Below are positions 290 through 52,635 of a stretch of 64,000 bases of DNA, piece after piece. The notes below the pieces were generated by a model. That model was not told the DNA's origin and did no database searches. It saw only the letters and a list, made by a program, of their open reading frames with translations. The stretch lies in assembly GCA_948467675.1 (NCBI GenBank), contig CAOKFI010000006.1, positions 1 through 64,000 of the forward strand, written 5' to 3'. Every line of letters starts with the position of its first letter. Positions within the stretch are counted from its first letter, which is position 1. The position numbers were made by a program, and so were the translations under genes. This DNA is from an uncultured Porphyromonadaceae bacterium (GTDB lineage Bacteria > Bacteroidota > Bacteroidia > Bacteroidales > Muribaculaceae).

Positions 290-3200
290 TTGAAAAAACG
301 CTTAATCGCTTATATCTGTTTCGTGTGTATGTCATTGTCGTGCCTGGTCTGTAAGGGTGTCGACTATGGTGTTGCTGTGACAGAGATGCCGCTGTTTGAC
401 CAGCTTCCGTCTCGTTCGGTCTTGTGTATATTTCAGGACTCGGACGGTGATATGTGGTTCGGCACTGAAGACGGTCTTTGCCGGGATAATGGATACAGTA
501 TAAGATCGTATAGGCCGTCGGCGTCTTATTCCGGAATCAATAATAATGTAACCGGGATAGTGCAGGCTTCTGATGGCATGGTGTGGTTCGGGACGTCGCG
601 GGGTGTGTATCGTGTCGATAAGCGGACTCAGGAAGTTATACCGGTTATGGATGACCGTATAGATAATGTCGAGATCCGTAATATCTATGCTACGTCCGAT
701 GGGTCAGTATGGGTAGGTGTCGATGGCGCATTGTTGCGATTCTCGTCCGATGGGACGCGTATCAAGGATTACCAGATTCAATGGAACAATGCTCCGTCGT
801 GTGTGCGCTCCATGTACGAGGACCGTAGCGGCAGGATATGGATTGCGGTATGGGACGGGGGCCTGTGCCGTTATGAGCCGTCGTCCGATTCATGGATATA
901 TTATCCGTGGCCATACAAAGAGGGGTGTGTCGGTCTGCTGCAGGACAGGAGTCATGATTTCTTCTACGTGAGTATATGGCTGAAAGGTATTGCGCGGTTC
1001 GATCCGGATGCCGGTTCGGTTGATGATATGTTCTCGCTGTCGCACTCGTGGTCTATGGCTGATGAGCGTGACAATGCATATCTGTGCATGGAGCAGGATG
1101 ATGTCAAGGGTTATCTTTGGGCTGCGACAGTCAATGGCCTTCAGGTGTATGACAGTTCTGACCCGTTGGCGCTGAGGCCGATCGATCCGAAGACATTCGG
1201 GCTGAAAAGATATCAGATGCTTACCGATCTCTATAAGGACCGGGACGGGAATATATGGGTGGCCGGATTCAATGTGCCGAGTTTTGTGGTGTCGATCAGT
1301 ACCGGGGCGGTGACGTATCCGCTGTCGGCGGTCCATTCGACGAGCGGACACACGGCTACGGTGTCGGGTATCTGTTACGATGATGAACCGGGCTTGTTCT
1401 GGATATTTCAGGAACGTCACAGACTGTATCTTTATGATATGTCGACAGACCGTATAGAGAGCGAGATTCCGAATCTGTTTTCAGATACTCATAATAATCT
1501 CGGTGCGATATATATGATGATCAAATCGCGCAGATACCGTGGGGTGTGGGCGGCAAGCACTATGCCTGCCGGAATATATCGGCTGAGTCAGGACGACCGC
1601 CGTATTATGGTGACTGACCGTATCCCTTTTTCGGGTATTGCCCCAAAGGCGATGTTCGAGGATATGTCGGGGCAGTTGTGGATAGGCTCGGAAGGCGGAT
1701 TGTACATATATGTAATAGACAGTCGCGAGCTGATACCAGTCGACGATATCGGCTCGGTGGTGGATATCACGGCATCGCCTTCGGGAGATGTGGTCGTGGC
1801 TGCATATGATTCTTCCGGGCAGTCATATATATATACCTATCATGGCCGTAACCGGATATCTGGCCGCCGGTTTAATGGAGATTGTACGGCTGTTGCTGTT
1901 ACTTCTGACAATTCTTTATGGATAGGAACCCGTCTTGGAGAGGTGTGGAGGCTTGCGAATCATGAAGATGCTGTCAGATTGTCGGAATGCAGTGATTTTA
2001 CGTCTGCCGGTTATGTCCGTGGGCTTGTGACTGACAGTTGCGGACATCTGTGGATACAGACAGAGCAGCGCCTTACGGAATTGGAGCCGTCGTCATTGAG
2101 CATGCGCCATTATTATGTCAACGAGGGATATATCGGTCTGTTCAACTTTTTTCCGCGCACTTATGCCGTGCTTCCCTCCGGTGAGCTGATTTTCGGCGGT
2201 GCCGGTGGTTTCTGTCGTCTGGAGTCTACTCCGTCGCTGTCGGATCTTGAAGCCGATGCCGCTCCGGTGATCAATTATGTGAAAGTGGACGGCAGTAATG
2301 TGCCGTTGCCGGATTCCGGCGAAGCTCTTGAGCTGACGCCCGGCGATCATACGGTCGAGATTGAATTCGGTACCTCGGACCATTTGGGAGCCAAACGCAA
2401 GGTTTATGCCTATAGGATAGGCGATACGCCGTGCAGCTGGATTTCCATGGCTCCAGGACATAATGTCGTGCATTTGTCTAGGCTTGAAAAGGGGGCTCAC
2501 CGGCTCGAATTGCGGAGCCTGGGTTCTGATCCGGCTGACAAGGCGTCGATAGCGTCATTGCTGATCAACAGACAGCCGGCATTTCATGAGACATGGTGGT
2601 TTCTGGGTGTGATATTATTGTTGTGCGGGTCGGCGGTCTGGACTATGGTATGGTTTTATAACCGGCATAAGACAAATGAGCGTAACCAGCGTATGGAGGC
2701 AGAGTTGGTGCAGCTTAAATTTAACTTCTTTACGAATATAACTCATGAGTTGCGAACACCTCTGTCGTTGATAATCACACCTCTCGATGCTCTGATCAGA
2801 AGATCGGACAATGCCGATACGCGCAAGCAGCTGATAAATATACGGCGTAATGCCGGCGAACTGCTTAAACTGATAAACCGCACTTTGAGTTTCAGACGTC
2901 TGGAGATGGGCGGAGAGCGATTGTCGGTCTTGCAAGGCGATCTGGCCGAATTTGTCGGTAATATAGTGGAGTCGTTCCGTCCTTTGGCCGAGGAGAAGCA
3001 GGTCGATCTCAGTCTTGAGTCGGATGGAGCCGGGTGCTGTGTCGGATTTGATGCCGAGAAATTCAGAATCATAATAAATAATCTACTGTCGAACGCATTT
3101 AAATTTACGGAGCCGGGCGATGCAGTAAAAACGAGTGTATGCCGCACGTCTGTCAGCGGCAGGGACTGGATTGTGATCCGGATTGCCGATACCGGATGCG

Positions 3201-4267
3201 GTATTCCGGAGCGTGATATACCTCATATAATGGATGTGTTCTATCAGTCGGCATCGGGCAGCGGTGTAGGCGATGGAAATGCCGGAAGCGGCATCGGGCT
3301 GTATGTGGTGAACGAATATGTGAAAATGCATGGCGGAAAAGTCGAGGTGCATAGCCGGCAGGGAGAGGGTACCGAGTTCGCGATATGGCTTCCTGTTTCA
3401 GACGCTGATGTGTCGGATTCGGCTGTGGCTTCTGAAAGTGACGAGTCTGCTTCTGTGGATGAGATACCGGAGGCAACCTCGCGTAAAACGGTTCTTCTGG
3501 TCGAAGACAATCAGGAATTCAGGGAGTTTATGCGCAACGAGCTGTCAGACCAATACGATGTAGTGGAGGCTTCTGACGGAATGGAAGGAGAAGATATGGC
3601 TCTGCAATTCCATCCCGATGTCATCATCAGCGATGTCATGATGCCTCGGCGCGATGGGTTCGAGCTGTGTCGGGCTATAAAGAATAATGTAGACACTTCG
3701 AGTATTCCGGTTATTCTTTTGTCGGCACGTATCGATCGCCCGTCGGAGATAAGAGGGTATGAGAGCCGGGCTGATGTATATCTTACCAAACCGTTCAATC
3801 TCGGCATATTGCTGAACCGTATCGAATATCTGATCGCACGGCAGTCGGAGTTGCGTCAGGAGTTCAAGGAAGTTCTGGAGACAGACCCGAAGAAGATTGC
3901 CATAAGTCCGCTCGATGAGGAGCTGCTGACGCGCATACTGGCGTGTGTGGAGAAGAATATGACAAATTCGAATTACGGTATAGCGGAGCTTAGCCGTGAT
4001 GTAAATATGAGCCGTATGAATCTGTACCGGAAGTTGCAGGCGATAACCGGACAGACCCCTACGGATTTTGTTAAGACTGTGCGTCTGAAGAAGGCGGCTA
4101 TCATGTTACGGGAACGCAAATGCTCGATAGTCGAAGTCGCCTATGCGGTCGGTTACAGCAGTCCGAGCTATTTTACCCGGTCGTTTAAGGGCGAGTTCGG
4201 TCTCACCCCCTCCCAGTATATAGAGCGTGCGCATCACAACGGTCCAAGCACTCCTCCGGATGCCTGA
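290..4267 (+). CDS. Hybrid two-component system sensor/regulator (HTCS) of the PUL
   Basis: A 1325-residue one-protein signalling system that senses glycan fragments in the periplasm and activates PUL genes in the cytoplasm. Order seen: signal/anchor 1-23; beta-propeller repeats of the W-x-GT-x-x-GL type to about 680; a Y_Y_Y-type domain at about 690-755; membrane segment 769-790; histidine kinase with H819 in NITHELRTP; ATPase with N, G1 (DTGCGIP) and G2 (GSGIGLY) boxes; receiver domain with phospho-acceptor D1115 and K1167; C-terminal AraC-type helix-turn-helix at about 1225-1315. Length is normal for the family. The start is TTG at 290, the only one that keeps the MKKR-hydrophobic signal segment. 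Its neighbour is the GH106 gene, so it probably controls the PUL that follows. The ligand cannot be told from sequence. Confidence 0.95.
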   Translation: MKKRLIAYICFVCMSLSCLVCKGVDYGVAVTEMPLFDQLPSRSVLCIFQDSDGDMWFGTEDGLCRDNGYSIRSYRPSASYSGINNNVTGIVQASDGMVWFGTSRGVYRVDKRTQEVIPVMDDRIDNVEIRNIYATSDGSVWVGVDGALLRFSSDGTRIKDYQIQWNNAPSCVRSMYEDRSGRIWIAVWDGGLCRYEPSSDSWIYYPWPYKEGCVGLLQDRSHDFFYVSIWLKGIARFDPDAGSVDDMFSLSHSWSMADERDNAYLCMEQDDVKGYLWAATVNGLQVYDSSDPLALRPIDPKTFGLKRYQMLTDLYKDRDGNIWVAGFNVPSFVVSISTGAVTYPLSAVHSTSGHTATVSGICYDDEPGLFWIFQERHRLYLYDMSTDRIESEIPNLFSDTHNNLGAIYMMIKSRRYRGVWAASTMPAGIYRLSQDDRRIMVTDRIPFSGIAPKAMFEDMSGQLWIGSEGGLYIYVIDSRELIPVDDIGSVVDITASPSGDVVVAAYDSSGQSYIYTYHGRNRISGRRFNGDCTAVAVTSDNSLWIGTRLGEVWRLANHEDAVRLSECSDFTSAGYVRGLVTDSCGHLWIQTEQRLTELEPSSLSMRHYYVNEGYIGLFNFFPRTYAVLPSGELIFGGAGGFCRLESTPSLSDLEADAAPVINYVKVDGSNVPLPDSGEALELTPGDHTVEIEFGTSDHLGAKRKVYAYRIGDTPCSWISMAPGHNVVHLSRLEKGAHRLELRSLGSDPADKASIASLLINRQPAFHETWWFLGVILLLCGSAVWTMVWFYNRHKTNERNQRMEAELVQLKFNFFTNITHELRTPLSLIITPLDALIRRSDNADTRKQLINIRRNAGELLKLINRTLSFRRLEMGGERLSVLQGDLAEFVGNIVESFRPLAEEKQVDLSLESDGAGCCVGFDAEKFRIIINNLLSNAFKFTEPGDAVKTSVCRTSVSGRDWIVIRIADTGCGIPERDIPHIMDVFYQSASGSGVGDGNAGSGIGLYVVNEYVKMHGGKVEVHSRQGEGTEFAIWLPVSDADVSDSAVASESDESASVDEIPEATSRKTVLLVEDNQEFREFMRNELSDQYDVVEASDGMEGEDMALQFHPDVIISDVMMPRRDGFELCRAIKNNVDTSSIPVILLSARIDRPSEIRGYESRADVYLTKPFNLGILLNRIEYLIARQSELRQEFKEVLETDPKKIAISPLDEELLTRILACVEKNMTNSNYGIAELSRDVNMSRMNLYRKLQAITGQTPTDFVKTVRLKKAAIMLRERKCSIVEVAYAVGYSSPSYFTRSFKGEFGLTPSQYIERAHHNGPSTPPDA

Positions 4268-4363
4268 GTTCGGGATGTAACTACAAATGTATTAGTCGGA
4301 TGAAACCAATATGCAAGTATGCCGCTGTATGATGCATGCGGTGCGATTTGTTTCAATAATACG

Positions 4364-4433
4364 CATTTGTTACAAAATTACAACCCAATGTTACGGGTGT
4401 GAAATGTTTTGATTTCCGGATTTTGTTTCTTTG
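4364..4433 (+). promoter_or_regulatory. Promoter/operator region of the rhamnosidase PUL
   Basis: Two GTTAC half-sites lie at 4369-4373 and 4390-4394, exactly 21 bp apart; the first sits inside the palindrome TTTGTTACAAA (4366-4376). A -7-like box TTTCTTTG (4426-4433, one mismatch to TAnnTTTG) follows 32 bp after the second half-site. Positions 4364-4394 align without gaps to 46424-46454 upstream of rhaB (21 of 31 identical, the last nine all identical). The 21-bp direct-repeat layout fits an AraC-type activator. The upstream gap also holds TACAAATGTA (4282-4291), a 10-mer also found upstream of rhaB. Confidence 0.6.
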
Positions 4434-4476: not shown

Positions 4477-7400
4477 ATGCGATTATCTAAACTGACCCTT
4501 TTGGCCATGGCTGTGCCGGCACTGCTCGGTGCGGCCATGAGTGGTTGTACCGACAAGAACGTAGCACCAGACATCGCTACTGTCGAAGCTAACTTCAAGG
4601 CAGTGCCGGATTCTACCCGTATAGCTGTATACTGGTATTGGTTAAATGACCACATTTCGCCCGAGGGCGTTGTGAAAGACCTTCAGTCCATGAAAGAGGC
4701 CGGCATCGGCCGTGCCTATATCGGCTTCCAGGGTATCGAGGATATTCCTTACGGCGACGTGCACCTGTTTACTGACGAATGGTGGCGCGCTGTCCATACC
4801 GCACTCAAGACTGCCGGTGATCTCGATATCGAGATCGGTATATTCAATTGTCCCGGATGGAGTCAGTCCGGAGGCCCGTGGGTCAAGCCCGAACAGGCTA
4901 TGCGTTATCTTGCATCCAAGCAGGTTGAGGTAACCGGAGCCGGCGCTCAGACAATAGCGCTTCCGGAGATGGGCGAGGATGCTCAGGATGTATGCGTCAT
5001 AGCATATCCGGCTCCTGCCGCCGATGGCTTCTCGCAGGAATGGACGTTTGAGAAGCAGGAGGGCAAGCCTCTTCAGGCGGTGATGCGTCTTCCGCAGCCT
5101 ACGGTAGTGCGCAGCATGGCAGTCACTGTCAGCTCCCCCATCATGGCCGCTGCATCGGTAAAGGTCAAGGATGGTGACGAATGGAAACTTGTAAAGACAT
5201 TTGAAATAGATCGATACAACCCTAATCTTCATGTGGGCTTTGACCCATATGCGCCCATTATTGTTTCGCTCCCGGAGAACAAGGTTGGAGAATGTATGTT
5301 AGAAGTAGGTAATGCAGGGAGCGGAACAATAAATGTGGTCGTCAACGAATACCCTATGGTCGAGCGTTATGCTGAGAAGTCTCTTGCCAAGATGTTCCAG
5401 CAGCCGCTGCCCATGTGGGATCAATATATGTGGGCTGCGCAGCCCGAAAGCACTTCGACGGATGGTATCGTGGATCCGGCGTCGGTAGTGGATCTGACCG
5501 CTTCGGTTCAGCCTGACGGGACTTTGCAGTGGAATGTTCCCGACGGCCGTTGGATCGTGTCACGTCTTGCCATGCGTCCGACCGGAGTGACAAACTCCCC
5601 CGCGGCTCCGGATGCTACCGGCTTCGAAGTAGACAAGATGAATAAGGATCACCTTGAGGCACACTTCGACGCATTTATCGGAGAGATCATGCGACGTGTG
5701 CCTGCCGAGGACCGCAAAACGTTCAAAATAATAGTAGAGGACAGCTATGAGACTGGAGGTCAGAACTGGACCGACGCTCTTGCCGCTGATTTCGAAGAGC
5801 GTTACGGATATTCGCCTGTCCCGTATCTGCCTGTGCTCCGTGGTATTGTGGTGGGCAGCGAGGATCAGTCCGACCGGTTCCTCTGGGATCTTCGCCGTCT
5901 GATTGCCGATAAAGTGGCATACGATTATGTGGGCGGTCTGCGTGAGATCTCAAACCGTAATGGTTTCACTACCTGGCTTGAAAATTACGGACACTGGGGT
6001 TTCCCGGCTGAGTTCCTGCAGTATGGAGGTCAGAGCGATGAAATAGGCGGTGAGTTCTGGAGCGAAGGCTCGCTGGGCGATATCGAGAACCGTGCGGCAT
6101 CGTCATGCGGCCATATATATGGAAAGAATAAGATCTGGGCGGAGTCCTGCACAAGCGGCGGCCCTGTATTCACACGCTATCCCGCTATCATGAAGCAGCG
6201 TGTCGACCGCTTCTTTACGGAAGGCATCAATGCGACACTGCTCCATCTGTATACCCATCAGGATTCGTCGGCAGTGGAGCCCGGTATCGCGGCTTGGTTC
6301 GGCAACGAGTTCAACCGCAAGAATATATGGTTCTCGCAGATGCGCACGTTCACCGACTATCTGCGCCGTTGCAACTACATGCTTCAGCAGGGTCGTTATG
6401 TCGCTGATGTTGCATATTTTATCGGCGAGGATGCTCCTAAGATGACAGGCGTGTGTGATCCGGAATTGCCGGCCGGATATTCGTTCGATTATATAAACGG
6501 TGAGATTCTTGCCGGACATGCCAAGGTTAAAGACGGCCGCCTGTTGCTTGACAGCGGCATGGAATACCGTCTGCTCGTGCTGCCGCGTCAGGAGTCAATG
6601 CGGCCTGAACTTCTTGAGAAACTTAAAAGCCTGGTTGCCGACGGGCTGACCATACTCGGTCCGGCTCCTACATGCTCTCCCAGCCTCCAGAACTATCCTG
6701 AGGCCGACAACAAGGTCAAGGCGATTGCCGCCGAGATGTGGGGCGATGCCGCCGCTCCGATTGACAGTAAGGACTGCCGTGGACACAAGTTCGGAAAGGG
6801 CAGAGTATACTCCGGTTGTGACATAGTGTCGGTGCTCGGAGGAATTGGCGTCGGACCGGATCTGTCGGTTCCTGCCGGAGAGGAATACCCGCTGTTCATT
6901 CACCGGACCATGGCTGATGCCGAGATTTATTTCGTGGCCAACCCGTATGAAAAAGAACTTGCCATCAATCCGGCATTCCGTGTGGATGGTGTCATGTATC
7001 CGGAACTCTGGAATCCGGTCGACGGAAAAGTCCGTAATCTCCCTGAATTTAAAGTCGAGTCAGGAACCATCACGGTGCCGTTGCAGTTGCAGCCTCTCGA
7101 GAGTGTATTCGTCGTGTTCCGCAAGGGTGAATCGCCTGTTGCCGGAGGCGTCAATAATCCGGTAGCTTCAGCGACGATGGATCTGACAGCACCGTGGACA
7201 GTTACGTTTGATGCGTCACGCCGCGGTCCGAAAGATCCGGTGGTGATGGAATCGCTTGCCGACTGGACTACTTTTAACAATGACTCGATAAAATATTATT
7301 CCGGAAGTGCCGTTTATTCTACAACATTCGATCTCGAAGCCGTTCCCTCTGCGCCGACATATCTCGATCTCGGCAAGGTGATGGTAATGGCTCGCGTCAA

Positions 7401-7665
7401 AGTCAACGGACATGATGCCGGTGGAGTATGGACTGCTCCGTATAGAGTCGATGTGACACCGTATCTGCAGCAAGGTGAGAACACTGTCGAGGTAGAGGTG
7501 GTCAACAACTGGAAGAACCGTATGATCGGCGATGATGCATTGCCGGAGGATCAGCGACAGATCTGGACCAATGTATGGATCCATCATAAGGGTGATGAAC
7601 TTCAGCCGTCAGGTCTGATGGGTCCGGTCAGGTTGCAGTCGTATGATTATCATGTAAAAAATTGA
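4477..7665 (+). CDS. Alpha-L-rhamnosidase, GH106-like lipoprotein
   Basis: Predicted to hydrolyse terminal alpha-L-rhamnose from plant glycans or glycosides. The N-terminus is a lipoprotein signal with Cys24 (AMSGC). The mature start IAVYWYWLNDHISPEGVVKD followed by LQSMKEAGIG is characteristic of GH106. Conserved acidic segments include DSYETGGQNW (E425) and the SEGSLGDIENRA region near residue 530. The C-terminal 130 residues form a galactose-binding-like jelly roll (KVNGHDAGGVWTAPYRVDV). The 1062 residues fit the family. It is the first gene after the HTCS and is preceded by an operator-like block shared with the rha operon, which supports rhamnose release. Exact linkage specificity and catalytic residues are not assignable from sequence alone. 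Confidence 0.85.
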   Translation: MRLSKLTLLAMAVPALLGAAMSGCTDKNVAPDIATVEANFKAVPDSTRIAVYWYWLNDHISPEGVVKDLQSMKEAGIGRAYIGFQGIEDIPYGDVHLFTDEWWRAVHTALKTAGDLDIEIGIFNCPGWSQSGGPWVKPEQAMRYLASKQVEVTGAGAQTIALPEMGEDAQDVCVIAYPAPAADGFSQEWTFEKQEGKPLQAVMRLPQPTVVRSMAVTVSSPIMAAASVKVKDGDEWKLVKTFEIDRYNPNLHVGFDPYAPIIVSLPENKVGECMLEVGNAGSGTINVVVNEYPMVERYAEKSLAKMFQQPLPMWDQYMWAAQPESTSTDGIVDPASVVDLTASVQPDGTLQWNVPDGRWIVSRLAMRPTGVTNSPAAPDATGFEVDKMNKDHLEAHFDAFIGEIMRRVPAEDRKTFKIIVEDSYETGGQNWTDALAADFEERYGYSPVPYLPVLRGIVVGSEDQSDRFLWDLRRLIADKVAYDYVGGLREISNRNGFTTWLENYGHWGFPAEFLQYGGQSDEIGGEFWSEGSLGDIENRAASSCGHIYGKNKIWAESCTSGGPVFTRYPAIMKQRVDRFFTEGINATLLHLYTHQDSSAVEPGIAAWFGNEFNRKNIWFSQMRTFTDYLRRCNYMLQQGRYVADVAYFIGEDAPKMTGVCDPELPAGYSFDYINGEILAGHAKVKDGRLLLDSGMEYRLLVLPRQESMRPELLEKLKSLVADGLTILGPAPTCSPSLQNYPEADNKVKAIAAEMWGDAAAPIDSKDCRGHKFGKGRVYSGCDIVSVLGGIGVGPDLSVPAGEEYPLFIHRTMADAEIYFVANPYEKELAINPAFRVDGVMYPELWNPVDGKVRNLPEFKVESGTITVPLQLQPLESVFVVFRKGESPVAGGVNNPVASATMDLTAPWTVTFDASRRGPKDPVVMESLADWTTFNNDSIKYYSGSAVYSTTFDLEAVPSAPTYLDLGKVMVMARVKVNGHDAGGVWTAPYRVDVTPYLQQGENTVEVEVVNNWKNRMIGDDALPEDQRQIWTNVWIHHKGDELQPSGLMGPVRLQSYDYHVKN

Positions 7666-23062: not shown

Positions 23063-26000
23063 ATGTTGAAAAAAATATTATCAGTAATTACTATGGTTTT
23101 GGGCTTACACCTTGCGGTGGGAGCCCAAAACTTTATGAAGATCACATCCTACAATATATGGGATGGTTTCGACAATAAGCCTGAACGCCGCCAGGCATTT
23201 GTCGACTGGGTACGAGCCGACAGCTCCGATATCGTAATGACAATGGAACTTGTCGGGTTCAAGGCGGCTGATCTGGAGAAACTTGGGGCTGACTGCGGAT
23301 ATCCTTATACCGCGATCTTGAAAGAGGAGTGGTATCCTGTCGGTGTCATGTCGAAAACTCCGATCGAGGTAGTCAGCAGGTTTGTGACTCCTACCGAGGA
23401 ATTCATGGTTACGAAACGCGGTATGTGGCATGGACTGCTGCACGCCCGAACCGGAGGGCTTGATCTGCTGATCACGCATCTTAGTCCGTTTGACTATGAA
23501 TTCCGTCAGCGGGAGGCCGACTTTATAATCAGTTATGCCGACAGCCTGGGTCTGAAAGACTATCTTGTGGCAGGAGATCTGAACTCGATCTCACCTTACG
23601 ACGCGGACTATACTGCCGCCAAAGGCTATCTGAAACGATTGAAGGCCGGTGACAAGAAGCGCATACAGCAGGGTTGGCGCAATGTAACCGATGCCGGAAC
23701 ATTCGACACTTCGGTGATCGCACGCTTCCTCGGCTCTGGTTTGAGCGATCCTGTATGGGCTTATGAGAAAGATCCGAAGAAACGTATGTCGTTCCCTTCG
23801 GCATATTGTCGCGGCAAGACTCCCGACGATCCCGCGATGGAGGATCAGCGGGTGCGTATAGACTATGTCCTGCTGTCGCCGTCGCTTATGAAGCGGTGCG
23901 TGTCGGCGCAGATCACACCTGTCGAAGGTGTCTCCGACCATTATCCCGTGCAGTTGCTTCTGACACGGAATGATTACCGGAATCCGGCTCTTCCTGCCGA
24001 AGTGCGTGCCGCCGATCTGCTGTCGCGCATGACACTCGATGAGAAGATAGCCCAGATCCGTCATATACACCACTCCAACATCTATGACGGACAGCAGCTG
24101 AACTATGGCAATATGCACGGATTTCTCGGCGATGTGGCGTGGGGATTCGTCGAAGGGTTTCCGCTTACGGCGGAAAATTTCCGTACCGGTATGCGTCAGG
24201 TGCAGAAGTATATGGTCGACAGCACACGTCTGGGCATACCGGCGTTTATTGTGGCCGAATCGCTCCACGGATCGGTACATGAGGGCACGGCTATCTTTCC
24301 TCAGAACATAGCTCTGGCTTCTACGTTCGATCCGGCGTTGGCCTACGCGCGCGCTCAGGGAGCGTCGGCCGATCTCCATTATCAGGGTGTCAACCAGATT
24401 CTCGCTCCGTGTATCGACGTGGTGCGTGACATGCGCTGGGGGCGGGTAGAGGAGACATACGGCGAGGATCCATGGCTCAATGCAATATTTGCCTGTGCCG
24501 AGGCAAAGGGTTATCTCGACAGTGGAATATCCCCCATGCTAAAACATTTCGGCGCTCATGGCAATCCTACCGGTGGGCTTAACCTGGCTTCGGTACACTG
24601 TGGCCTCGGCGAACTTCATGATGTGTATCTTTATCCGTTCAAACGTGTTTTGACCACATTGCCTGTCGAGGCAGTGATGTCGAGCTATAACTCATGGAAC
24701 CGCGAACCGAACTCATCGTCGCGCTATCTGCTCACGGATGTGCTTCGTGGTCAATGGGGATTCAAAGGCTATGTGTACTCCGACTGGGGAGCTATCGAGA
24801 TGCTCAATACATTCCATCACAGCGCGCCGTCGATGGCTGCTGCCGGAGTCGATGCGCTGAAAGCCGGTCTCGATGTCGAGGCCTCGAGCGAATGCTATCC
24901 GCATCTTGCGCGTCTGATCCGTTCGGGACGTATCGATGAAGCGGCAGTCGACACGGCTGTAATGCGTGTGCTGGAGGCCAAATTCCGCCTCGGGCTGTTT
25001 GAGGATCCTTACGGAGACCGTTATCGTAAAGCAGCGGCGTTACGATCGCCTGAAAGTGTCGCGCTGTCGCGCGCGATAGCTGACGAGGCCACCGTATTGC
25101 TTAAAAATGAAGACAATCTGCTTCCGCTCGATTCCGCAGGACTGAAGTCGATAGCGGTGATCGGACCTAATGCCGATCAGGTTCAGTTCGGCGACTATTC
25201 ATGGAGCCGCAACAATGCCGACGGAGTGACTCCGTTGGCTGGTATACGCAGTATACTCGCAGGAACCGGAACTGATGTGAGGTATGCACGCGGGTGCAAT
25301 CTGATGAGTATGGACACTACAGGCATAGCCGAAGCCGTGGAAGCTGCCCGCCGCAGCGATGTGGCTGTTATATTCTGCGGCAGTGCCAGCGCCGCACTTG
25401 CACGTGACTATTCTGGCTCGAACTGCGGCGAAGGGTTCGACCTGACCGATCTGAACCTGACAGGCGCACAGCCGGAACTTATAAAGGCCGTTCATGCCAC
25501 CGGTACTCCTGTCATTCTCGTGCTTGTGACAGGCAAACCGTTTACCATAGCCTGGGAGAAGGAGAATATCCCCGCTATACTCGTGCAGTGGTATTCGGGA
25601 GAGAAGGAGGGCGATGCCATTGCCGACATATTGTTCGGGCGCGTCAATCCTTCCGGACATCTGCCGGTGTCGTTTCCGCAGAGTGTGGGCCATCAGCCGG
25701 CTCATTACAACCATCTCCCTACCGATCACGGATATTACCGCGCTCCCGGCACATACGAACGTCCGGGTCGTGACTATGTTTTCTCGAATCCGGATCCGCT
25801 CTGGGCGTTCGGCCATGGTATGAGCTATACTTCGTTCGGCTATTCCGGACTCGTTGTCGAGCAGACACCCGATTCCGTACATGTGACTGTAACCGTGACC
25901 AATACCGGCTCTCGTGCCGGCAAGGCTGTGCCACAGCTCTATGTCCGGGACAAAGTGAGTACGGTTGTGACTCCGGTACAGCAGTTGCGTGCGTTCAGCA

Positions 26001-26467
26001 AAGTGTCGCTCCAGCCGGGAGAGTCCCGAAACGTATATCTCGGTTTTGCTGTCGATGATCTCGCTGTTACCGACAACCGCGGGCATCGTGTCGTGGAACC
26101 CGGAGAATTCGAGATTCGGGTAGGAGAGGCGTCAGACCGGATACTGCTTACCGAAACCATTGCGGTAGGCGATGCCGATCCGATACTCGATACCGATCCG
26201 GCCAAGGAAGTCAAGGACGAATACAAGGGTACCGGTCGCAAGATCAGTGTCAGTGGCATAGTCCGAGACGTCCAGGCTACACCTCTTGCCGGAGTGGAGA
26301 TACGGTCTGAGAAGCAACGCAAGGTCGTGGGGCGCAGTGCCGCCGATGGATCCTATAAGGTGAAAGTGGCCGATAACGACCGTCTGATATTCCGTCTTGA
26401 TGGATATAAAGAGTTGTCCGAACCAGTGCGCGGGCGTACCGGTATCGGTGTCAGGATAGCGAAATGA
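23063..26467 (+). CDS. Fusion protein: EEP-fold phosphodiesterase plus GH3 glycosidase
   Basis: 1134 residues in one uninterrupted frame. Residues 1-22 are a signal peptide. Residues 24-305 are an endonuclease/exonuclease/phosphatase domain with its metal and catalytic residues in place: N31, E62, D172 and N174 (GDLNS), RIDYVLL, D292-H293 (SDHYP). Residues about 309-1045 are a complete GH3 beta-glucosidase/xylosidase with nucleophile D574 (YSDWGAI), the YSGEKEGDAIADILFG region and a C-terminal fibronectin-like domain (VTVTNTGSRAGK). Residues 1058-1134 are a carboxypeptidase-regulatory-like domain. Both enzymes look active and should work in the periplasm or at the cell surface. GH3 specificity is not assignable. 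The stop codon lies inside a terminator hairpin. Confidence 0.9.
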   Translation: MLKKILSVITMVLGLHLAVGAQNFMKITSYNIWDGFDNKPERRQAFVDWVRADSSDIVMTMELVGFKAADLEKLGADCGYPYTAILKEEWYPVGVMSKTPIEVVSRFVTPTEEFMVTKRGMWHGLLHARTGGLDLLITHLSPFDYEFRQREADFIISYADSLGLKDYLVAGDLNSISPYDADYTAAKGYLKRLKAGDKKRIQQGWRNVTDAGTFDTSVIARFLGSGLSDPVWAYEKDPKKRMSFPSAYCRGKTPDDPAMEDQRVRIDYVLLSPSLMKRCVSAQITPVEGVSDHYPVQLLLTRNDYRNPALPAEVRAADLLSRMTLDEKIAQIRHIHHSNIYDGQQLNYGNMHGFLGDVAWGFVEGFPLTAENFRTGMRQVQKYMVDSTRLGIPAFIVAESLHGSVHEGTAIFPQNIALASTFDPALAYARAQGASADLHYQGVNQILAPCIDVVRDMRWGRVEETYGEDPWLNAIFACAEAKGYLDSGISPMLKHFGAHGNPTGGLNLASVHCGLGELHDVYLYPFKRVLTTLPVEAVMSSYNSWNREPNSSSRYLLTDVLRGQWGFKGYVYSDWGAIEMLNTFHHSAPSMAAAGVDALKAGLDVEASSECYPHLARLIRSGRIDEAAVDTAVMRVLEAKFRLGLFEDPYGDRYRKAAALRSPESVALSRAIADEATVLLKNEDNLLPLDSAGLKSIAVIGPNADQVQFGDYSWSRNNADGVTPLAGIRSILAGTGTDVRYARGCNLMSMDTTGIAEAVEAARRSDVAVIFCGSASAALARDYSGSNCGEGFDLTDLNLTGAQPELIKAVHATGTPVILVLVTGKPFTIAWEKENIPAILVQWYSGEKEGDAIADILFGRVNPSGHLPVSFPQSVGHQPAHYNHLPTDHGYYRAPGTYERPGRDYVFSNPDPLWAFGHGMSYTSFGYSGLVVEQTPDSVHVTVTVTNTGSRAGKAVPQLYVRDKVSTVVTPVQQLRAFSKVSLQPGESRNVYLGFAVDDLAVTDNRGHRVVEPGEFEIRVGEASDRILLTETIAVGDADPILDTDPAKEVKDEYKGTGRKISVSGIVRDVQATPLAGVEIRSEKQRKVVGRSAADGSYKVKVADNDRLIFRLDGYKELSEPVRGRTGIGVRIAK

Positions 26468-44075: not shown

Positions 44076-45158
44076 ATGAAATTCAAATCTTTACTCCTTG
44101 CGGTTTCGGCATGTGCCATTGCACATGGTGCGACTGCGCAGTCGCACCATGGTTTCTACTGGAAAGTCGAGTCATTCGACCTCGATCCGTATGTTACTAA
44201 CAACAGCAATGCTGATAAATCGTTGACATGTTGGTTTACTCCGGAAGTGGTAATGCCTATGGTTAAGAATGACGCGACTCTTGAGGAGAGTACTGTCTAT
44301 GGCAATAATTCATCTACCATGCTGGTACGTCTTTCGACTATCAACGGAACCAAGAATAATTACTTCACAAAAGTGACTGGTACCGCTTTAAATACGAATG
44401 AAGACTACTATAAATTCGATGATGACGGCATGCTTGTGTGCACCATGCCTGATAAGATGGACTATCCACGTACCGATGCTGAGACTCCAAACTGGACGGC
44501 CGCTCCCGCTACTGGATGCATGCTTTTCCATTTGACCTTAGGCGGAGCTCCTACACGTATCAATGACGCTGGAAATGAACTCAGTGCTACATCGGAAGAA
44601 GCTTATCTTAGCGACTGTACTGGTATGTATGTAGGTATCAAGGCTCCTGCCGGATGTACTATCAAGTCATTCCTCTCCACCTCGAGCATATCCAAGGCCA
44701 ACATGCAGGCTGACTTGAGTCTCAACAGCGGTACTGTCTACAATGCCAATCTTGAGGGCAAAGTGCATACAGCTGCATTCGACTATGATGCTGTATGCGA
44801 TGGCGAGTATCACGAGTTCACATCAGGTGCTGCCTACAACGCGCTCACCGGTCTGACTTATGTCAGCACCAAGTGGCCCAATGGGTATTGCGTGAAATAT
44901 GTCGATGTAGTCGTTTATGGCGTTAAACCTGGCGACGTTGTTGGTTTCGCTGGCGTGCAGACCCTACATTCGGGATGGACAGGTCAGGAATTCATTGAAG
45001 GCGGCAGTGCTGGTGTCGATGCTGTAGGCGTGGACAATGCCGACGCTCCTGTGGAATATTTCAATCTCCAGGGTATGAGCGTCAACGCCGATAACCTGAC
45101 TCCCGGTATTTATATTAAACGTAAAGGTACCGAGACCTCCAAGATTGTAATTAAATAA
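44076..45158 (+). CDS. Secreted protein of unknown function with C-terminal sorting tail, copy 1
   Basis: 360 residues. A normal signal peptide ends at GATAQ, followed by HHGFYWK. The body is unrecognised; blocks shared with the next gene are CWFTPEVVMP, TLEES, MDYP, CTGMYVGIKAPAG, WPNGYCVKYVDVVVYGVKPGD and GVQTLHSGW. The last ~45 residues (DNADAPVEYFNLQGMSVNAD, then TPGIYIKRKG and SKIVIK) match the type A sorting tail of the type IX secretion system, so it is probably exported to the surface or medium. Function not known. Confidence 0.75.
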   Translation: MKFKSLLLAVSACAIAHGATAQSHHGFYWKVESFDLDPYVTNNSNADKSLTCWFTPEVVMPMVKNDATLEESTVYGNNSSTMLVRLSTINGTKNNYFTKVTGTALNTNEDYYKFDDDGMLVCTMPDKMDYPRTDAETPNWTAAPATGCMLFHLTLGGAPTRINDAGNELSATSEEAYLSDCTGMYVGIKAPAGCTIKSFLSTSSISKANMQADLSLNSGTVYNANLEGKVHTAAFDYDAVCDGEYHEFTSGAAYNALTGLTYVSTKWPNGYCVKYVDVVVYGVKPGDVVGFAGVQTLHSGWTGQEFIEGGSAGVDAVGVDNADAPVEYFNLQGMSVNADNLTPGIYIKRKGTETSKIVIK

Positions 45159-45261: not shown

Positions 45262-46302
45262 ATGAACATAAAATCATTAATCATTTCTCGTTCTGCAAGT
45301 GCTATTGCACTTGGTGCGACGCCGCAGCCCCACCACGGTTTTTACTGGCAGCCGTCAATGCAGGACTTCAATGACTTTATGAATCCTCCGGCAACCGCTA
45401 ATGAAATAAATGCGCTCAATTTCTGCATGAACTCGTGGTTCACCCCCGAACTTACAATGCCGATTGTAAAGGCTGACGGCACATTGGAGGAAAGCAATAT
45501 CTATGCTGACAATAAGACCGACCTGATGCCGCGTTTCCCCAAAGTGGAGGACAATGCATCAAGCCTGACCGGTGTTATCGTGACACCTGCTATGGAAAAC
45601 GGATACATGACAGTCACCATACCCGATGAACTTGAGTATCCTTATTTTGACTCCTACACTGAAAAGGGTGTAATGTTCTTCCACTGCGTGCTTGGCAGCA
45701 AGAGCGAGAAACTTCGCATCAACGATGCCAAAAATACCTTGAGTGCTACTGGCGAGCGTGCTTATCTGAAAGACTGCACAGGCGTGTATGCCGGTATTCA
45801 GGCTCCTGCCGGTGCTACAGTCAAGGTATTCTTGTCGACCCCCAATATCTCTGAGGAGAACCTCGGCGGTTACGGCACAAACCCCAACCTGTATGACAAG
45901 ATGCAGACAATCGTGTTTGATTTCGATGTCGAATTCGACGGCACTTATAAGGAATTCACTTCCGGCAAACCTTACAATGCACTGGCCGGTATCGAACTGA
46001 ACGCTACCAACAACGCAAAATGGCCCGACGGATACTGCGTTAAGTTTATCGACGTAGCTGTATATGGCGTTAAGGCCGGCGATAAGGTAGGCTTCGGCGG
46101 TGTGCAGTCGCTCCACGAAGGCTGGACTCCCAAAACATTCGTAGAGGGCTGGTCCGGTGTCGATGCCATCGGCGTAGACAATGCCGACGCTCCTGTAGAA
46201 TACTTCAACATCCAGGGTGTGCGCGTAAGCGCCGACAACCTGACCCCCGGTCTCTACATCAAGCGTCAGGGCACCGAGGCTACCAAGGTTCTCGTTAAGT
46301 AA
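45262..46302 (+). CDS. Paralog copy 2 of the tail-bearing secreted protein, with impaired signal peptide
   Basis: 346 residues, paralogous throughout to the preceding gene, including the C-terminal tail (DNADAPVEYFNIQGVRVSAD, then TPGLYIKRQG and TKVLVK). The N-terminus aligns with the signal of copy 1, but the hydrophobic core is broken by an arginine (SLIISRSASAIAL) and the cleavage site ATA-Q has become ATP-Q, with proline at -1. Type I cleavage would be blocked and export is doubtful. The leaders are also alike (TATTAATTTTT before both), so the duplication included the 5' region. Function unknown. Confidence 0.72.
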   Translation: MNIKSLIISRSASAIALGATPQPHHGFYWQPSMQDFNDFMNPPATANEINALNFCMNSWFTPELTMPIVKADGTLEESNIYADNKTDLMPRFPKVEDNASSLTGVIVTPAMENGYMTVTIPDELEYPYFDSYTEKGVMFFHCVLGSKSEKLRINDAKNTLSATGERAYLKDCTGVYAGIQAPAGATVKVFLSTPNISEENLGGYGTNPNLYDKMQTIVFDFDVEFDGTYKEFTSGKPYNALAGIELNATNNAKWPDGYCVKFIDVAVYGVKAGDKVGFGGVQSLHEGWTPKTFVEGWSGVDAIGVDNADAPVEYFNIQGVRVSADNLTPGLYIKRQGTEATKVLVK

Positions 46303-46367: not shown

Positions 46368-46423
46368 GTCTTATTCCGCCCGGGATGGCTGTTGTCCCGC
46401 CGAAATTGAAACGGATTGTACAT

Positions 46424-46454
46424 ATTCTGCTACAAATGTAGCAATCAATGTTAC
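46424..46454 (+). promoter_or_regulatory. Rhamnose regulator operator, 21-bp direct repeat
   Basis: Half-sites GCTAC (46429-46433) and GTTAC (46450-46454) are 21 bp apart. The distal one is part of the palindrome TGCTACAAATGTAGCA (46428-46443). The block ends 10 bases before the -33 element of the rhaB promoter, the position of an AraC-type activator. It aligns with 4364-4394 upstream of the GH106 gene. In Bacteroides the rhamnose regulator RhaR is an AraC-family protein; no rhaR gene is in this window. Confidence 0.65.
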
Positions 46455-46464
46455 ATACGAGATA

Positions 46465-46494
46465 TTGCGGGATTGAAATATTTCTCTATCTTTG
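46465..46494 (+). promoter_or_regulatory. Promoter of the rhamnose operon
   Basis: -33 element TTG (46465-46467), a spacer of exactly 19 bases, and -7 element TATCTTTG (46487-46494), a full match to the Bacteroidetes consensus. The predicted transcript starts near 46500, leaving a leader of about 95 bases before rhaB. Confidence 0.85.
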
Positions 46495-46594: not shown

Positions 46595-48070
46595 ATGTCA
46601 GCTAAACATTTTATCGCATTTGACCTGGGCGCAACCAGCGGCCGTACCATTCTTGGCACGCTCGAAAAGGACGGTGTGCTCACGACCAAGGAAATCACCC
46701 GTTTCCCGAATGGGATGATGGAGATCAACGGGCATCTCTACTGGAATATCTATTCGCTCTACGAGCATATCCGCGAAGGGCTCCTTCAGGTTGCCAAAAC
46801 CGGTGTCACACCGACCTCGATCGGTATCGATACATGGGGCGTAGACTTTGCCTGCATAGCTTCCGACGGATCTATAATCGGACTGCCTCACGCTTACCGC
46901 GATCCGCAGTACACGGATTCGCGTGCGCGTTTCTTTAATAATGTGATGCCGGCTTCGGAACTGTACCGTCGCACCGGCATACAGCACCTGGATTTCAACA
47001 CGGTGTTCCAGTTCAATGAATGGCGTGGATCGTTCGCTATGGATAACGCCGCCAAGATCGTGTTCCTTCCAGACGTGCTGTCATATCTTCTTACCGGAAA
47101 TATCGTGACCGAATACACAATAGCATCGACCGGTGAGATTCTCGACGCTGGAAAGCGTACTTTCGACGAGGAAATATTGGAGAAGGTGGGTCTCGATACC
47201 ACCAAATTCGGCCCGATTGTGATGCCCGGTACTGAAATCGGCACACTTTCCGCCGACCTGGCCGAATGGGCTGGACTGCCCCGTATACCGGTTGTGGCCG
47301 TAGGCGGCCACGACACGGCCTCGGCTGTGGCCGGTGTTCCTGCCCAGGACCGCAACTTCGCATATCTCAGCTCAGGCACATGGTCTCTGATGGGAATCGA
47401 AACCGACGAACCGAAGATCAACGCTCTTACCGAGGAGTACAATATCACCAACGAGGGCGGTGTGGAAGGCACTATCCGTCTGCTCAAGAATATAACCGGC
47501 ATGTGGATCGTAGAACAGTGCCTGCAGCGCTGGAAGAAAGACGACATCGTATACACCTATCCGCAGATGGTGGAACTGGCCGAAGCGGCCGACGAGTTCG
47601 TATGCTTCATCGATCCCGACGATCCGATGTTCGTACACCCTGCCGATATGCCTCAGGCCATAGTGGAATACTGCCGCCTGACAGGACAGCAGGCTCCTAA
47701 GACCCACGGCGAATTCATCCGCAGCATCTTCGAGAGCCTCGCGTTGAAGTACCGCATGATTCTCGACGTGTTCCGCTCGCTGGCTGAAAATCCGGTCGAC
47801 AAACTGCATGTGATCGGCGGCGGCTCGCGCAACAAGCTGCTCAACCGCTTTACCGCCAACGCTATCGGTGTGCCGGTCGTTGCCGGCCCGGCCGAGGCTT
47901 CATCGCTCGGCAATATCATGATGCAGGCCAAGGCTTGCGGCGCGGTTTCATCTCTTGCCGAAATGCGCCAGATCATAGCAGGAAATACCGACCTCGAATA
48001 CTTCGCCCAGGCTGATTCCGGCAAGTGGGAGGAGGCTTACAAACGTTATCTAACCCTTATAAAAAAATAA
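46595..48070 (+). CDS. rhaB: Rhamnulokinase
   Basis: 491 residues, close to the E. coli length. FGGY-kinase fold with the N-terminal phosphate loop FDLGATSGRT, DTWGVDFA, the catalytic-base region VGGHDTASAV (D240, equivalent to D237 of E. coli), SSGTWSLMG and the C-terminal HVIGGGSRNKLLNRFTA. Phosphorylates L-rhamnulose at O1 with ATP in the cytoplasm. First gene of the operon rhaB-rhaA-rhaT-rhaD, 7 bases before rhaA. Confidence 0.96.
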   Translation: MSAKHFIAFDLGATSGRTILGTLEKDGVLTTKEITRFPNGMMEINGHLYWNIYSLYEHIREGLLQVAKTGVTPTSIGIDTWGVDFACIASDGSIIGLPHAYRDPQYTDSRARFFNNVMPASELYRRTGIQHLDFNTVFQFNEWRGSFAMDNAAKIVFLPDVLSYLLTGNIVTEYTIASTGEILDAGKRTFDEEILEKVGLDTTKFGPIVMPGTEIGTLSADLAEWAGLPRIPVVAVGGHDTASAVAGVPAQDRNFAYLSSGTWSLMGIETDEPKINALTEEYNITNEGGVEGTIRLLKNITGMWIVEQCLQRWKKDDIVYTYPQMVELAEAADEFVCFIDPDDPMFVHPADMPQAIVEYCRLTGQQAPKTHGEFIRSIFESLALKYRMILDVFRSLAENPVDKLHVIGGGSRNKLLNRFTANAIGVPVVAGPAEASSLGNIMMQAKACGAVSSLAEMRQIIAGNTDLEYFAQADSGKWEEAYKRYLTLIKK

Positions 48071-48077
48071 AACCACA

Positions 48078-49331
48078 ATGAACACAGAATCAATCAAGAA
48101 AGCATACGATATTGCCAAAGAGCGTTATGCTGCCGTTGGTGTCGATACCGACAAAGTACTGGACCTGATGCAGGATTTCCACCTGAGCATGCACTGCTGG
48201 CAGGCCGACGACGTGGCCGGCTTCGAGAACCAGGGCGGCTCGCTTACCGGCGGTATCCAGGTTAACGGCAACTACCCCGGCAAAGCACGCAACATCGACG
48301 AGCTCCGTGCCGATATACTTTATGCCATGACCCTTATCCCCGGCAAGCATCGTCTGAATCTCCATGAGATATACGGCGACTTCGGCGGCAAGGTAGTGGA
48401 TCGCGACGAGTGCTCTGTAGAGCATTTCCAGAGCTGGATCGACTGGGGTAAAGCCAACGACATAAAACTCGACTTCAACTCTACCTCTTTCTCTCATCCC
48501 AAGAGCGGCGACCTCAGCCTTTCAAACCCCGACAAGGGTATCCGTGATTTCTGGATCGAGCACTCGAAGCGTTGCCGTGCGATCTCGCAGGCTATAGGCG
48601 AAGCTCAGCAGGATCCCTGTATCATGAACACCTGGGTACACGACGGCTCTAAGGACATCACTGTCAACCGCTACCTCTACCGCGAGCTCCTGAAGGATTC
48701 TCTCGATCAGATCTTCGAGCAGAAATACGACTGGATGAAGGACTGCGTGGAATCAAAGGTGTTCGGTATCGGCCTTGAAAGCTACACCGTAGGCTCCAAC
48801 GACTTCTACACATCTTACGCTGCCAAGAACAACATGATGATAACTCTCGACACCGGCCACTTCCATCCGACCGAGAGCGTGGCCGACAAGGTTTCGGCGA
48901 TGTTGCTCTTCGTGCCCGAGCTGATGCTCCACGTAAGCCGCCCCATCCGCTGGGACTCTGACCACGTTACCATCATGGACGATCCCACTATGGATCTTTT
49001 CAGCGAAATCGTACGTGCCGGCGCTCTCAACCGCGTTCACTACGGCCTCGACTACTTCGACGGCACTCTCAACCGTATCGGTGCTTACGTGATCGGTAGC
49101 CGCGCTGCCCAGAAATGTATGCTCCGCGCTCTTCTCGAGCCCATCGCAAAACTGCGTGACTATGAGTTGACCGACCGCAAGTTCCAGCGCCTCGCCCTCC
49201 TCGAGGAGTGCAAGCAGCTCCCCTGGAATGCCGTTTACGATATGTTCTGCCTCAAGAACAACGTACCTGTAGGCGAAAGCTACATTGCCGAAGTTGAAAA
49301 ATACGAACGCGACGTCACCTCTAAACGGTAA
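48078..49331 (+). CDS. rhaA: L-rhamnose isomerase
   Basis: 417 residues. Converts L-rhamnose to L-rhamnulose in the cytoplasm with a divalent metal. Recognised by FHLSMHCWQADDVAGFE, GGIQVNGNYPGKARN, RLNLHEIYGDF, KLDFNSTSFSHPKSG, MNTWVHDGSKD and DTGHFHPTESVADK, which carry the metal-binding Glu/Asp/His residues. Its TAA overlaps the ATG of rhaT by one base (TAATG), giving translational coupling. Confidence 0.97.
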   Translation: MNTESIKKAYDIAKERYAAVGVDTDKVLDLMQDFHLSMHCWQADDVAGFENQGGSLTGGIQVNGNYPGKARNIDELRADILYAMTLIPGKHRLNLHEIYGDFGGKVVDRDECSVEHFQSWIDWGKANDIKLDFNSTSFSHPKSGDLSLSNPDKGIRDFWIEHSKRCRAISQAIGEAQQDPCIMNTWVHDGSKDITVNRYLYRELLKDSLDQIFEQKYDWMKDCVESKVFGIGLESYTVGSNDFYTSYAAKNNMMITLDTGHFHPTESVADKVSAMLLFVPELMLHVSRPIRWDSDHVTIMDDPTMDLFSEIVRAGALNRVHYGLDYFDGTLNRIGAYVIGSRAAQKCMLRALLEPIAKLRDYELTDRKFQRLALLEECKQLPWNAVYDMFCLKNNVPVGESYIAEVEKYERDVTSKR

Positions 49332-50365
49332 TGGAACTTATCATAGGACTTCTGATCATAGCCGTCGGCGCATTCTGTCAGTCGAGCTGCTACGTACCCA
49401 TCAACAAGATAAAAGACTGGAGCTGGGAATCGTACTGGATCGTACAGGGTGTGTTCGCCTGGCTGCTCTTACCGCTTCTCGGCGCACTGCTTGCAGTGCC
49501 CGAGGGGCATTGTCTGTGTGAACTGTTTTCCGCCGGCGACTCCTTCAATATCTGGATGACCATACTGTTCGGTGTGCTCTGGGGAGTAGGCGGACTCACA
49601 TTCGGTCTGTCCATGCGCTACCTCGGAGTGGCTCTCGGCCAGTCCATAGCTCTCGGCACATGTGCCGGCCTGGGTACCATCATGGGTCCGGTGCTGCTCA
49701 ATATTTTCTTCCCGGATATGGATGCGCTGTCGGCTCTTACCTTCTCGGTGATCCTCGGAGTGGTGGTGACGCTGATCGGTATCGCCATCATAGGCGTGGC
49801 CGGTTCCATGAAGTCGGCCTCCCTGTCGGAAGAAGAGAAGAAAGCGGCAGTCAAGGACTTCAACTTCCCCAAAGGTCTGGTTATCGCATTGCTCGCAGGC
49901 TTCATGAGCGGATGCTTCAATGTCGGTCTGGCATTCGGCGAGGGTATCAACTTCGGCGCCGAGACTCCCGATATGTTCAAGACCCTGCCGGCAACTTTCC
50001 TCGTTACTCTCGGTGGTTTTGTGACCAACGCCGTATATTGCTTCTACCAGAACAGCAAGAACGGTACCTGGAGCGACTACAGGAACGGCAGAGTGTGGCT
50101 GAACAATGTGGTGTTCTGTGCTCTGGCCGGCGCGCTCTGGTACAGCCAGTTCTTCGGACTCAGCCTCGGCAAGGGCTTCCTCACCGAATCGCCCACTCTC
50201 ATGACGCTTTCGTTCTGTATACTTATGGCGCTCAATGTGGTGTTCTCCAATGTGTGGGGTATCATTCTCAAGGAGTGGAAAGGCTGTTCGTCCAAAACTA
50301 TTGCCGTGCTCGTTGTCGGCATATTGGTTCTGATCGTGTCCTGCTTCCTGCCGCAATTGGTCTAA
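49331..50365 (+). CDS. rhaT: L-rhamnose-proton symporter
   Basis: 344 residues with about ten membrane segments, matching the RhaT family in length. N-terminus GLLIIAVGAFCQSSCYVPIN then KDWSWESYW is typical; WGVGGLTFGLSMRYLGVALG and the FLVTLGGFVTNAVYC helix are conserved. Imports L-rhamnose across the inner membrane. Its start codon overlaps the rhaA stop. Confidence 0.95.
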   Translation: MELIIGLLIIAVGAFCQSSCYVPINKIKDWSWESYWIVQGVFAWLLLPLLGALLAVPEGHCLCELFSAGDSFNIWMTILFGVLWGVGGLTFGLSMRYLGVALGQSIALGTCAGLGTIMGPVLLNIFFPDMDALSALTFSVILGVVVTLIGIAIIGVAGSMKSASLSEEEKKAAVKDFNFPKGLVIALLAGFMSGCFNVGLAFGEGINFGAETPDMFKTLPATFLVTLGGFVTNAVYCFYQNSKNGTWSDYRNGRVWLNNVVFCALAGALWYSQFFGLSLGKGFLTESPTLMTLSFCILMALNVVFSNVWGIILKEWKGCSSKTIAVLVVGILVLIVSCFLPQLV

Positions 50366-50407
50366 AAGTATTCTACCAATCATATCTAACTAATTAAAAC
50401 TGAAACT

Positions 50408-51217
50408 ATGTCGATTCTCGATAATCGCCCCGCTCTGGCTAAACAGGTCAATGATGTGGCCGAAGTCGCAGGCTATCTCTGGCAGAAGGGATGGGCTGAA
50501 CGCAACGGCGGCAACATTACTGTAAATGTGACTGACTGTGTCGATGACGCCATGCGCGCCCTCCCGGCCATCACAGAGCCTATTGCCATTGGCGTGACTC
50601 TCCCTCATCTGAAAGGATGCTGGTTCTATTGCAAAGGTACTAACCGCCGTATGCGCGATCTCGCACGCTGGCCGATGCAGAACGGATCCATAATCCGTAT
50701 CACCGACGACTGCGCCCACTATGAGATCGTGGCCGACGAACCCGTTATGCCGACCTCCGAGCTGCCGTCTCACCTGAGTGTACACAACTACCTTATCGCC
50801 AAGGGATCGCCCTATAAGGCATCGGTACACACACATCCGATCGAACTTGTGGCCATGAGCCATAATCCCGAATTCCTGAAGAAGGATGTGCTTACCAATC
50901 TGCTCTGGAGCATGATCCCCGAGACCAAGGCGTTCTGTCCGCGCGGACTCGGTATCGTGCCCTATATGCTCCCCTCGTCGGTGGAACTTGCCGATGCCAC
51001 TATCAAGGCTATCGACGACGACTACGACGTGGTGATGTGGGAGAAACATGGTGTATTCTCCGTAGGCCCCGACGTGCTCGAGGCTTTCGACATGATCGAC
51101 GTGCTCACCAAGAGCGCCATCATATATCAGGACGCCAAGTCGATGGGCTTTACTCCCGACGGTATGAGCGCGGCTCAGATGAAAGAGATCTCTGATGTTT
51201 TCCATCTCCCTAAATAA
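50408..51217 (+). CDS. rhaD: Rhamnulose-1-phosphate aldolase
   Basis: 269 residues. Class II zinc aldolase that splits L-rhamnulose-1-phosphate into dihydroxyacetone phosphate and L-lactaldehyde. Zinc ligands H141 and H143 (VHTHPIEL) and H214 (WEKHGVF), with the acid E118 (TSELPSHLSVH), align with the E. coli enzyme; ERNGGNITVN is the phosphate-binding region. Last gene of the operon, followed by a terminator. No lactaldehyde reductase or dehydrogenase gene follows. Confidence 0.96.
   Translation: MSILDNRPALAKQVNDVAEVAGYLWQKGWAERNGGNITVNVTDCVDDAMRALPAITEPIAIGVTLPHLKGCWFYCKGTNRRMRDLARWPMQNGSIIRITDDCAHYEIVADEPVMPTSELPSHLSVHNYLIAKGSPYKASVHTHPIELVAMSHNPEFLKKDVLTNLLWSMIPETKAFCPRGLGIVPYMLPSSVELADATIKAIDDDYDVVMWEKHGVFSVGPDVLEAFDMIDVLTKSAIIYQDAKSMGFTPDGMSAAQMKEISDVFHLPK

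Positions 51218-51411: not shown

Positions 51412-52635
<1,224 letters not shown>

Follow-up and report, generated by a model that had tools for sequence, protein, structure and literature searches.

The rhamnose operon and its promoter

The rhamnose catabolic operon rhaBITD of an uncultured Muribaculaceae bacterium, and the direct repeats that precede its first gene, rhaB, were analysed in a 64-kb window that begins with the first base of contig 6; the draft genome measures 2.58 Mb. A second promoter with a repeat of this kind lies in the same window, in front of a GH106 alpha-L-rhamnosidase gene that is followed by SusC/SusD-type genes and adjoins a gene for a hybrid two-component system (HTCS) regulator, referred to as the window HTCS. 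The coordinates of the features are collected in Table 1; the -7 consensus of Bacteroidota is TAnnTTTG.

Table 1. Promoter elements, genes and candidate regulators (window positions unless another contig is named).
Feature	Position	Strand	Remarks
Third half-site TGAAACGGAT	46407-46416	+	in one 21-bp phase with the half-sites at 46428 and 46449
Half-site TGCTACAAAT	46428-46437	+	the -7 box starts 59 bp further downstream
Half-site TGTTACATAC	46449-46458	+	21 bp downstream of the half-site at 46428
Possible -33 element of the rhaB promoter, TTG	46465-46467		
rhaB promoter -7 box TATCTTTG	46487-46494	+	
Rhamnose catabolic operon	46595-51217	+	NCBIfam matches
rhaB	46595-48070	+	NCBIfam
rhaI	48078-49331	+	NCBIfam
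rhaT	49331-50365	+	NCBIfam
rhaD	50408-51217	+	NCBIfam
Window HTCS	290-4267	+	Pfam: Reg_prop, HisKA, HATPase_c, Response_reg, AraC HTH; presumably regulates the GH106 cluster
GH106 promoter direct repeat TGTTACAAAA-N11-TGTTACGGGT	4368-4398	+	
GH106 promoter -7 box TTTCTTTG	4426-4433	+	first half-site 58 bp upstream
GH106 alpha-L-rhamnosidase	4477-7665	+	Pfam PF17132, E 1.3e-208; first gene 3' of the window HTCS
Contig-27 HTCS (HTCS_Rha)	contig 27, 34903-38919		full HTCS domain set, Reg_prop/Y_Y_Y; adjoins a GH78 gene
RhaR orthologue	contig 3, 85524-86387		40-54% identical to rhaB-adjacent RhaRs

All three TGNNAC words in the rhaB upstream region (3/3) fall into a single 21-bp phase; the third had been missed by an earlier description made from the letters of the window (the sequence-only reading). 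The rhaB promoter has a pair of similar half-sites with the spacing of about 21 bp that marks HTCS-type operators, and the arrangement supports the repeat as a putative operator with an AraC-type 21-bp direct-repeat architecture in an activating position. To this extent the sequence-only reading holds; RhaR, which it mentioned as a protein of the AraC family, is not supported as the binder, AATCAAA-type boxes being absent.

At both promoters the half-sites were found 21 bp apart as previously described (GCTAC at 46429-46433 and GTTAC at 46450-46454 before rhaB; GTTAC at 4369-4373 and 4390-4394 before the GH106 gene), and the gap-free alignment of 46424-46454 with 4364-4394 again gave 21 of 31 identities. 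The gap between GTTAC and the -7 box is 32 and 31 bp, respectively, instead of the 33 and 32 bp given earlier; the -7 boxes do differ at one base. When the two upstream regions were Markov-resampled, a best 31-mer identity of 21 was also reached in 32 of 1000 trials, so that the overall identity carries little weight as evidence. The structured motif, by contrast, is strong: the 2.58-Mb genome has three copies of TGYTAC-N15-TGYTAC (rhaB promoter, GH106 promoter and once inside an open reading frame (ORF)), and if a -7 box is required at 30-36 bp 3' of the motif, only the two promoters are left. A second common 10-mer, TACAAATGTA (46431-46440 and 4282-4291), had been taken for a further shared element. 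It is the reverse of the -7 word TACATTTG, and its complement TACATTTGTA includes the -7 consensus; since 11 copies are present in the genome (1 in the reversed control), the others examined lying inside genes or in unrelated intergenic places, this reversed -7 word is no evidence of sharing. A BlaI/MecI-type palindrome, TACANNTGTA, was rejected for lack of enrichment (36 sites, compared with 53 for the reversed control).

In a scan of 396 further genomes of the family, the exact TGYTAC repeat combined with the -7 pattern gave 11 matches in 10 genomes, near the reversed control (approximately 8), and several of these matches lay near other HTCS or glycosidase genes; the exact motif was therefore discarded as a diagnostic. 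TGTTAC repeats were also found near HTCS genes of another clade (genomes G261, G281 and G060). Being present at unrelated HTCS loci, TGTTAC is a word of the HTCS class and names no regulator.

HTCS genes beside rhaB in related genomes

Four relatives have an HTCS gene immediately 5' of rhaB (G129, 366 bp; G167, 377 bp; G193, 185 bp; G243, 196 bp), which in each is divergent from a GH78 rhamnosidase gene. The HTCSs of these genomes and of G211, G011 and G106 form one clade (support 100/100), here HTCS_Rha, together with an HTCS encoded on contig 27 of the genome studied; all clade members found are divergent from a GH78 homologue. The contig-27 protein is 39-47% identical to the other clade members (other HTCSs mostly 21-32%) and is the orthologue encoded in this genome. 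The window HTCS is not: it shares 25-26% identity with the rhaB-adjacent HTCSs and was placed outside the clade, on a long branch of unsure position. Assignment of a regulator by the identity of DNA-binding domains was also tried and was not decisive, the compared HTCSs being 29-38% identical to the window HTCS in this domain. The reading frame of the G243 HTCS (L254/L320) is split in the assembly (1129 + 214 aa).

The GH78 promoters of the clade share a TG(A/G)AACAAAT direct repeat with a period of 21 and some decay; on contig 27 it reads TGAAACAAAT-N11-TGCAACAAAT. In G129, G167, G193 and G243 the putative HTCS-type operator is situated at a promoter that neighbours an HTCS gene. The rhaB promoters of G129, G167 and G243 carry TGAAACAAA 58-59 bp before the -7 box, where the window has TGCTACAAA at 59 bp, and G193 carries TGAAACAAAC-N11-TGAAACATAC, in which TGAAACATAC occupies the place of TGTTACATAC in the window. 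Conservation in orthologous promoters had been named by the sequence-only reading as the test that could refute it: the exact motif is not conserved there, but a TGAAAC-type version is, at an equal distance from the -7 box, in several relatives.

Six relatives supplied the GH78 promoters for an independent operator matrix, which included neither rhaB sites nor sites of the studied genome. The matrix was applied to 126 different rhaB upstream regions, with a -7 box demanded 57-60 bp downstream, and to 222,668 bases (444,778 positions) of the studied genome. The window rhaB site (46428 + 46449) scored 15.5 and the pair 46407 + 46428 scored 17.8. A score of 15.5 or more was reached by five of the 126 upstream regions (G026, G243, G167, G129 and the window; next best 9.5) and by four of the 444,778 positions, two of them in the rhaB promoter (both phases) and one the contig-27 GH78 site. 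With a ten-site matrix the picture in the genome was alike, apart from one extra match inside the region of another HTCS gene. Among the controls, 11 of 5000 Markov-resampled promoters reached 15.5 and 5 of 2000 column-shuffled matrices reached the observed maximum; 21 was the best of nine periods tested. On a single operator model for both window promoters the data point both ways: the exact TGYTAC word is common to the two, and the HTCS_Rha matrix gives 15.5 to the rhaB site and 8.0 to the GH106 site, a score that 192 positions of the genome equal or exceed.

Assignment of a regulator

The gene neighbourhood in relatives and the operator matrix favour the contig-27 HTCS. We consider it probable, by a modest measure, that an HTCS, most likely this one, controls rhaBITD together with the GH78 gene, and that the GH106 cluster answers to an HTCS of its own. 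HTCS_Rha would act at the rhaB operator and would also drive the divergent GH78 rhamnosidase gene, and a periplasmic signal, presumably rhamnose or a rhamnoside, would turn on rhamnose release and cytoplasmic breakdown at once. RhaR, which usually regulates the rha operon in Bacteroidales, would have given way to this HTCS, and the GH106 cluster would be run by the adjacent window HTCS through a related but distinct operator. HTCSs can have distant targets (PMC3878776).

Several observations weigh against this assignment. The HTCS_Rha gene and rhaB are on different contigs of the genome itself, contig 27 ending soon after the HTCS gene. Both rhaB half-sites (TGCTAC and TGTTAC) have T at position 4, as the GH106 operator does, whereas 17 of 20 HTCS_Rha half-sites have A at this position, and the score of 15.6 obtained for rhaB with the ten-site matrix lies slightly under the lowest leave-one-out training score (range 16.4-25.2). 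No good box was found before the rha operon of G011 or at the main rhaB of G193, although both are clade genomes; conversely, G026 has a good box, yet its genome, which is incomplete, yielded no HTCS_Rha.

The sequence-only reading had proposed one regulator for both units. In its present form the window HTCS would bind the GH106 and rhaB operators and govern rhamnosidase release and rhamnose catabolism alike; this explanation is possible but second best, and we regard it as doubtful. It draws on the TGYTAC-N15-TGYTAC repeats with an in-register -7 box, on the T that all four half-sites have at position 4 and most HTCS_Rha sites lack, on the position of the GH106 gene beside the window HTCS and on the adjacency of GH106 and rhaB in five relatives. 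The exact sharing of TGYTAC keeps it alive, but the HTCS_Rha matrix picks the rhaB and not the GH106 promoter, the window HTCS is no orthologue of the HTCSs beside rhaB in relatives, the overall identity of the promoters is weak, and a word that recurs at unrelated HTCS loci names no regulator by being shared. No orthologue of the window HTCS was found among the 396 other family genomes at E <= 1e-200, so that it has no operator matrix of its own, and the TGYTAC repeat was not found in the promoters of the closest GH106 homologues. A combination of both inputs appears still less probable: a conserved Muribaculaceae HTCS would have replaced RhaR and linked the rha operon to GH78, and the window rhaB operator, with its three phased half-sites intermediate between two rhamnosidase-linked HTCS operators, would take both. 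It is very improbable that the repeats arose by chance in a promoter rich in AT and that the operon is under other control, such as that of a global regulator; the words are short and such 31-mer identity arises in about 3% of shuffled pairs, but three half-sites in a single 21-bp phase at the correct -7 distance, and the independent match to the operators of relatives, speak against chance.

In Bacteroides thetaiotaomicron the rha operon is activated by RhaR, for which a 21-bp direct-repeat motif has been predicted (PMC3870299). RhaR genes adjoin rhaB at many loci in Bacteroidales. An orthologue is encoded on contig 3, and it could activate rhaBITD through the repeat described here if its DNA specificity had changed. 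In approximately 12 rhaB promoters of Bacteroides, Phocaeicola and Prevotella, however, A(A/G)TCA repeats with a period of 21 lie about 36 bp before the -7 box, in keeping with the reported 21-bp repeat, and the rhaB boxes of RhaR-type Bacteroidales are AATCAAA/AGTCATT repeats. This also holds for Muribaculaceae with RhaR near rhaB (G312, G141 and G157), where RhaR-matrix matches lie 59-60 bp before the -7 box. No RhaR-type box was found at the window rhaB promoter (best score -2.8; training boxes 19.7-32.4, leave-one-out), and the sole genome-wide match to the A(A/G)TCA repeat pattern (period 21, close to a -7 box) lies elsewhere. The contig-3 RhaR is also part of an operon of its own. From these patterns RhaR seems unlikely as the regulator of the window rhaB operon, and its action with altered specificity very unlikely. 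RhaR-like proteins were detected at E <= 1e-50 in 8 of 198 sampled family genomes, and rhaB in 128 of 397. The operon in question (contig 3, 80965-86387; L230:4966-10388) comprises the RhaR orthologue, an AraA-like isomerase gene (PF11762) and a second GH106 gene; the RhaR and isomerase genes are adjacent in G155 (L247) too.

Related systems and neighbouring genes

Control of rhamnose catabolism by RhaR in Bacteroides is the textbook example of regulation by a cytoplasmic sugar sensor. The RhaR regulon of Bacteroidales (Patel et al. 2008; Rodionova et al. 2013, PMC3870299) resembles the present case in its target operon, its 21-bp direct repeat and a similar -7 distance; it differs in the operator, AATCAAA there and TGNNACAAA here, where the RhaR box is missing, and in that RhaR is a small cytoplasmic AraC protein. 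The HTCS regulons of B. thetaiotaomicron (Ravcheev et al. 2013, PMC3878776) share the AraC-type output domain, direct repeats of about 21 bp and a target gene that often adjoins the regulator gene, but the target proposed here, the rhamnose operon, is under RhaR in Bacteroides. The fructose/levan HTCS BT1754 (PMC5061871) offers a likeness to what is proposed here, a single periplasm-sensing HTCS for polymer breakdown and monosaccharide catabolism; its sensor domain is COG1879 (PMC3878776), whereas HTCS_Rha has Reg_prop/Y_Y_Y. In a literature search without most subscription journals, no description of HTCS control of a rhamnose catabolic operon was found.

If the assignment to an HTCS is true, it amounts to the exchange of one regulator for another, with an HTCS and a rha operon of known kinds, in a dominant mouse-gut family, and to another case, beside fructose/levan, of a single HTCS coupling glycan cleavage to monosaccharide breakdown. 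The outcome is a named candidate regulator, a named putative operator and a brief target list. Since a GH106 gene lies directly before rhaB in five genomes (G106, G011, G082, G102 and G061; L255-L259), the coupling of rhamnosidase to catabolism recurs in Muribaculaceae by different means.

Directly 5' of the rha operon lie two adjacent, similar-looking ORFs, 44076-45158 (360 aa) and 45262-46302 (346 aa), neither with an NCBIfam match and the latter without a Pfam match either. A carboxynorspermidine synthase-like gene (51412-52635; score under the curated cut-off) follows 194 bp 3' of rhaD. Adjoining the HTCS-GH106 cluster, the minus strand of positions 1-54 appears by eye to hold the end of a tRNA-Lys gene cut at the window start; ARAGORN called no tRNA on the cut sequence. 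Elsewhere in the window, a single ORF (23063-26467) fuses an endonuclease/exonuclease/phosphatase domain to a GH3 glycosidase.
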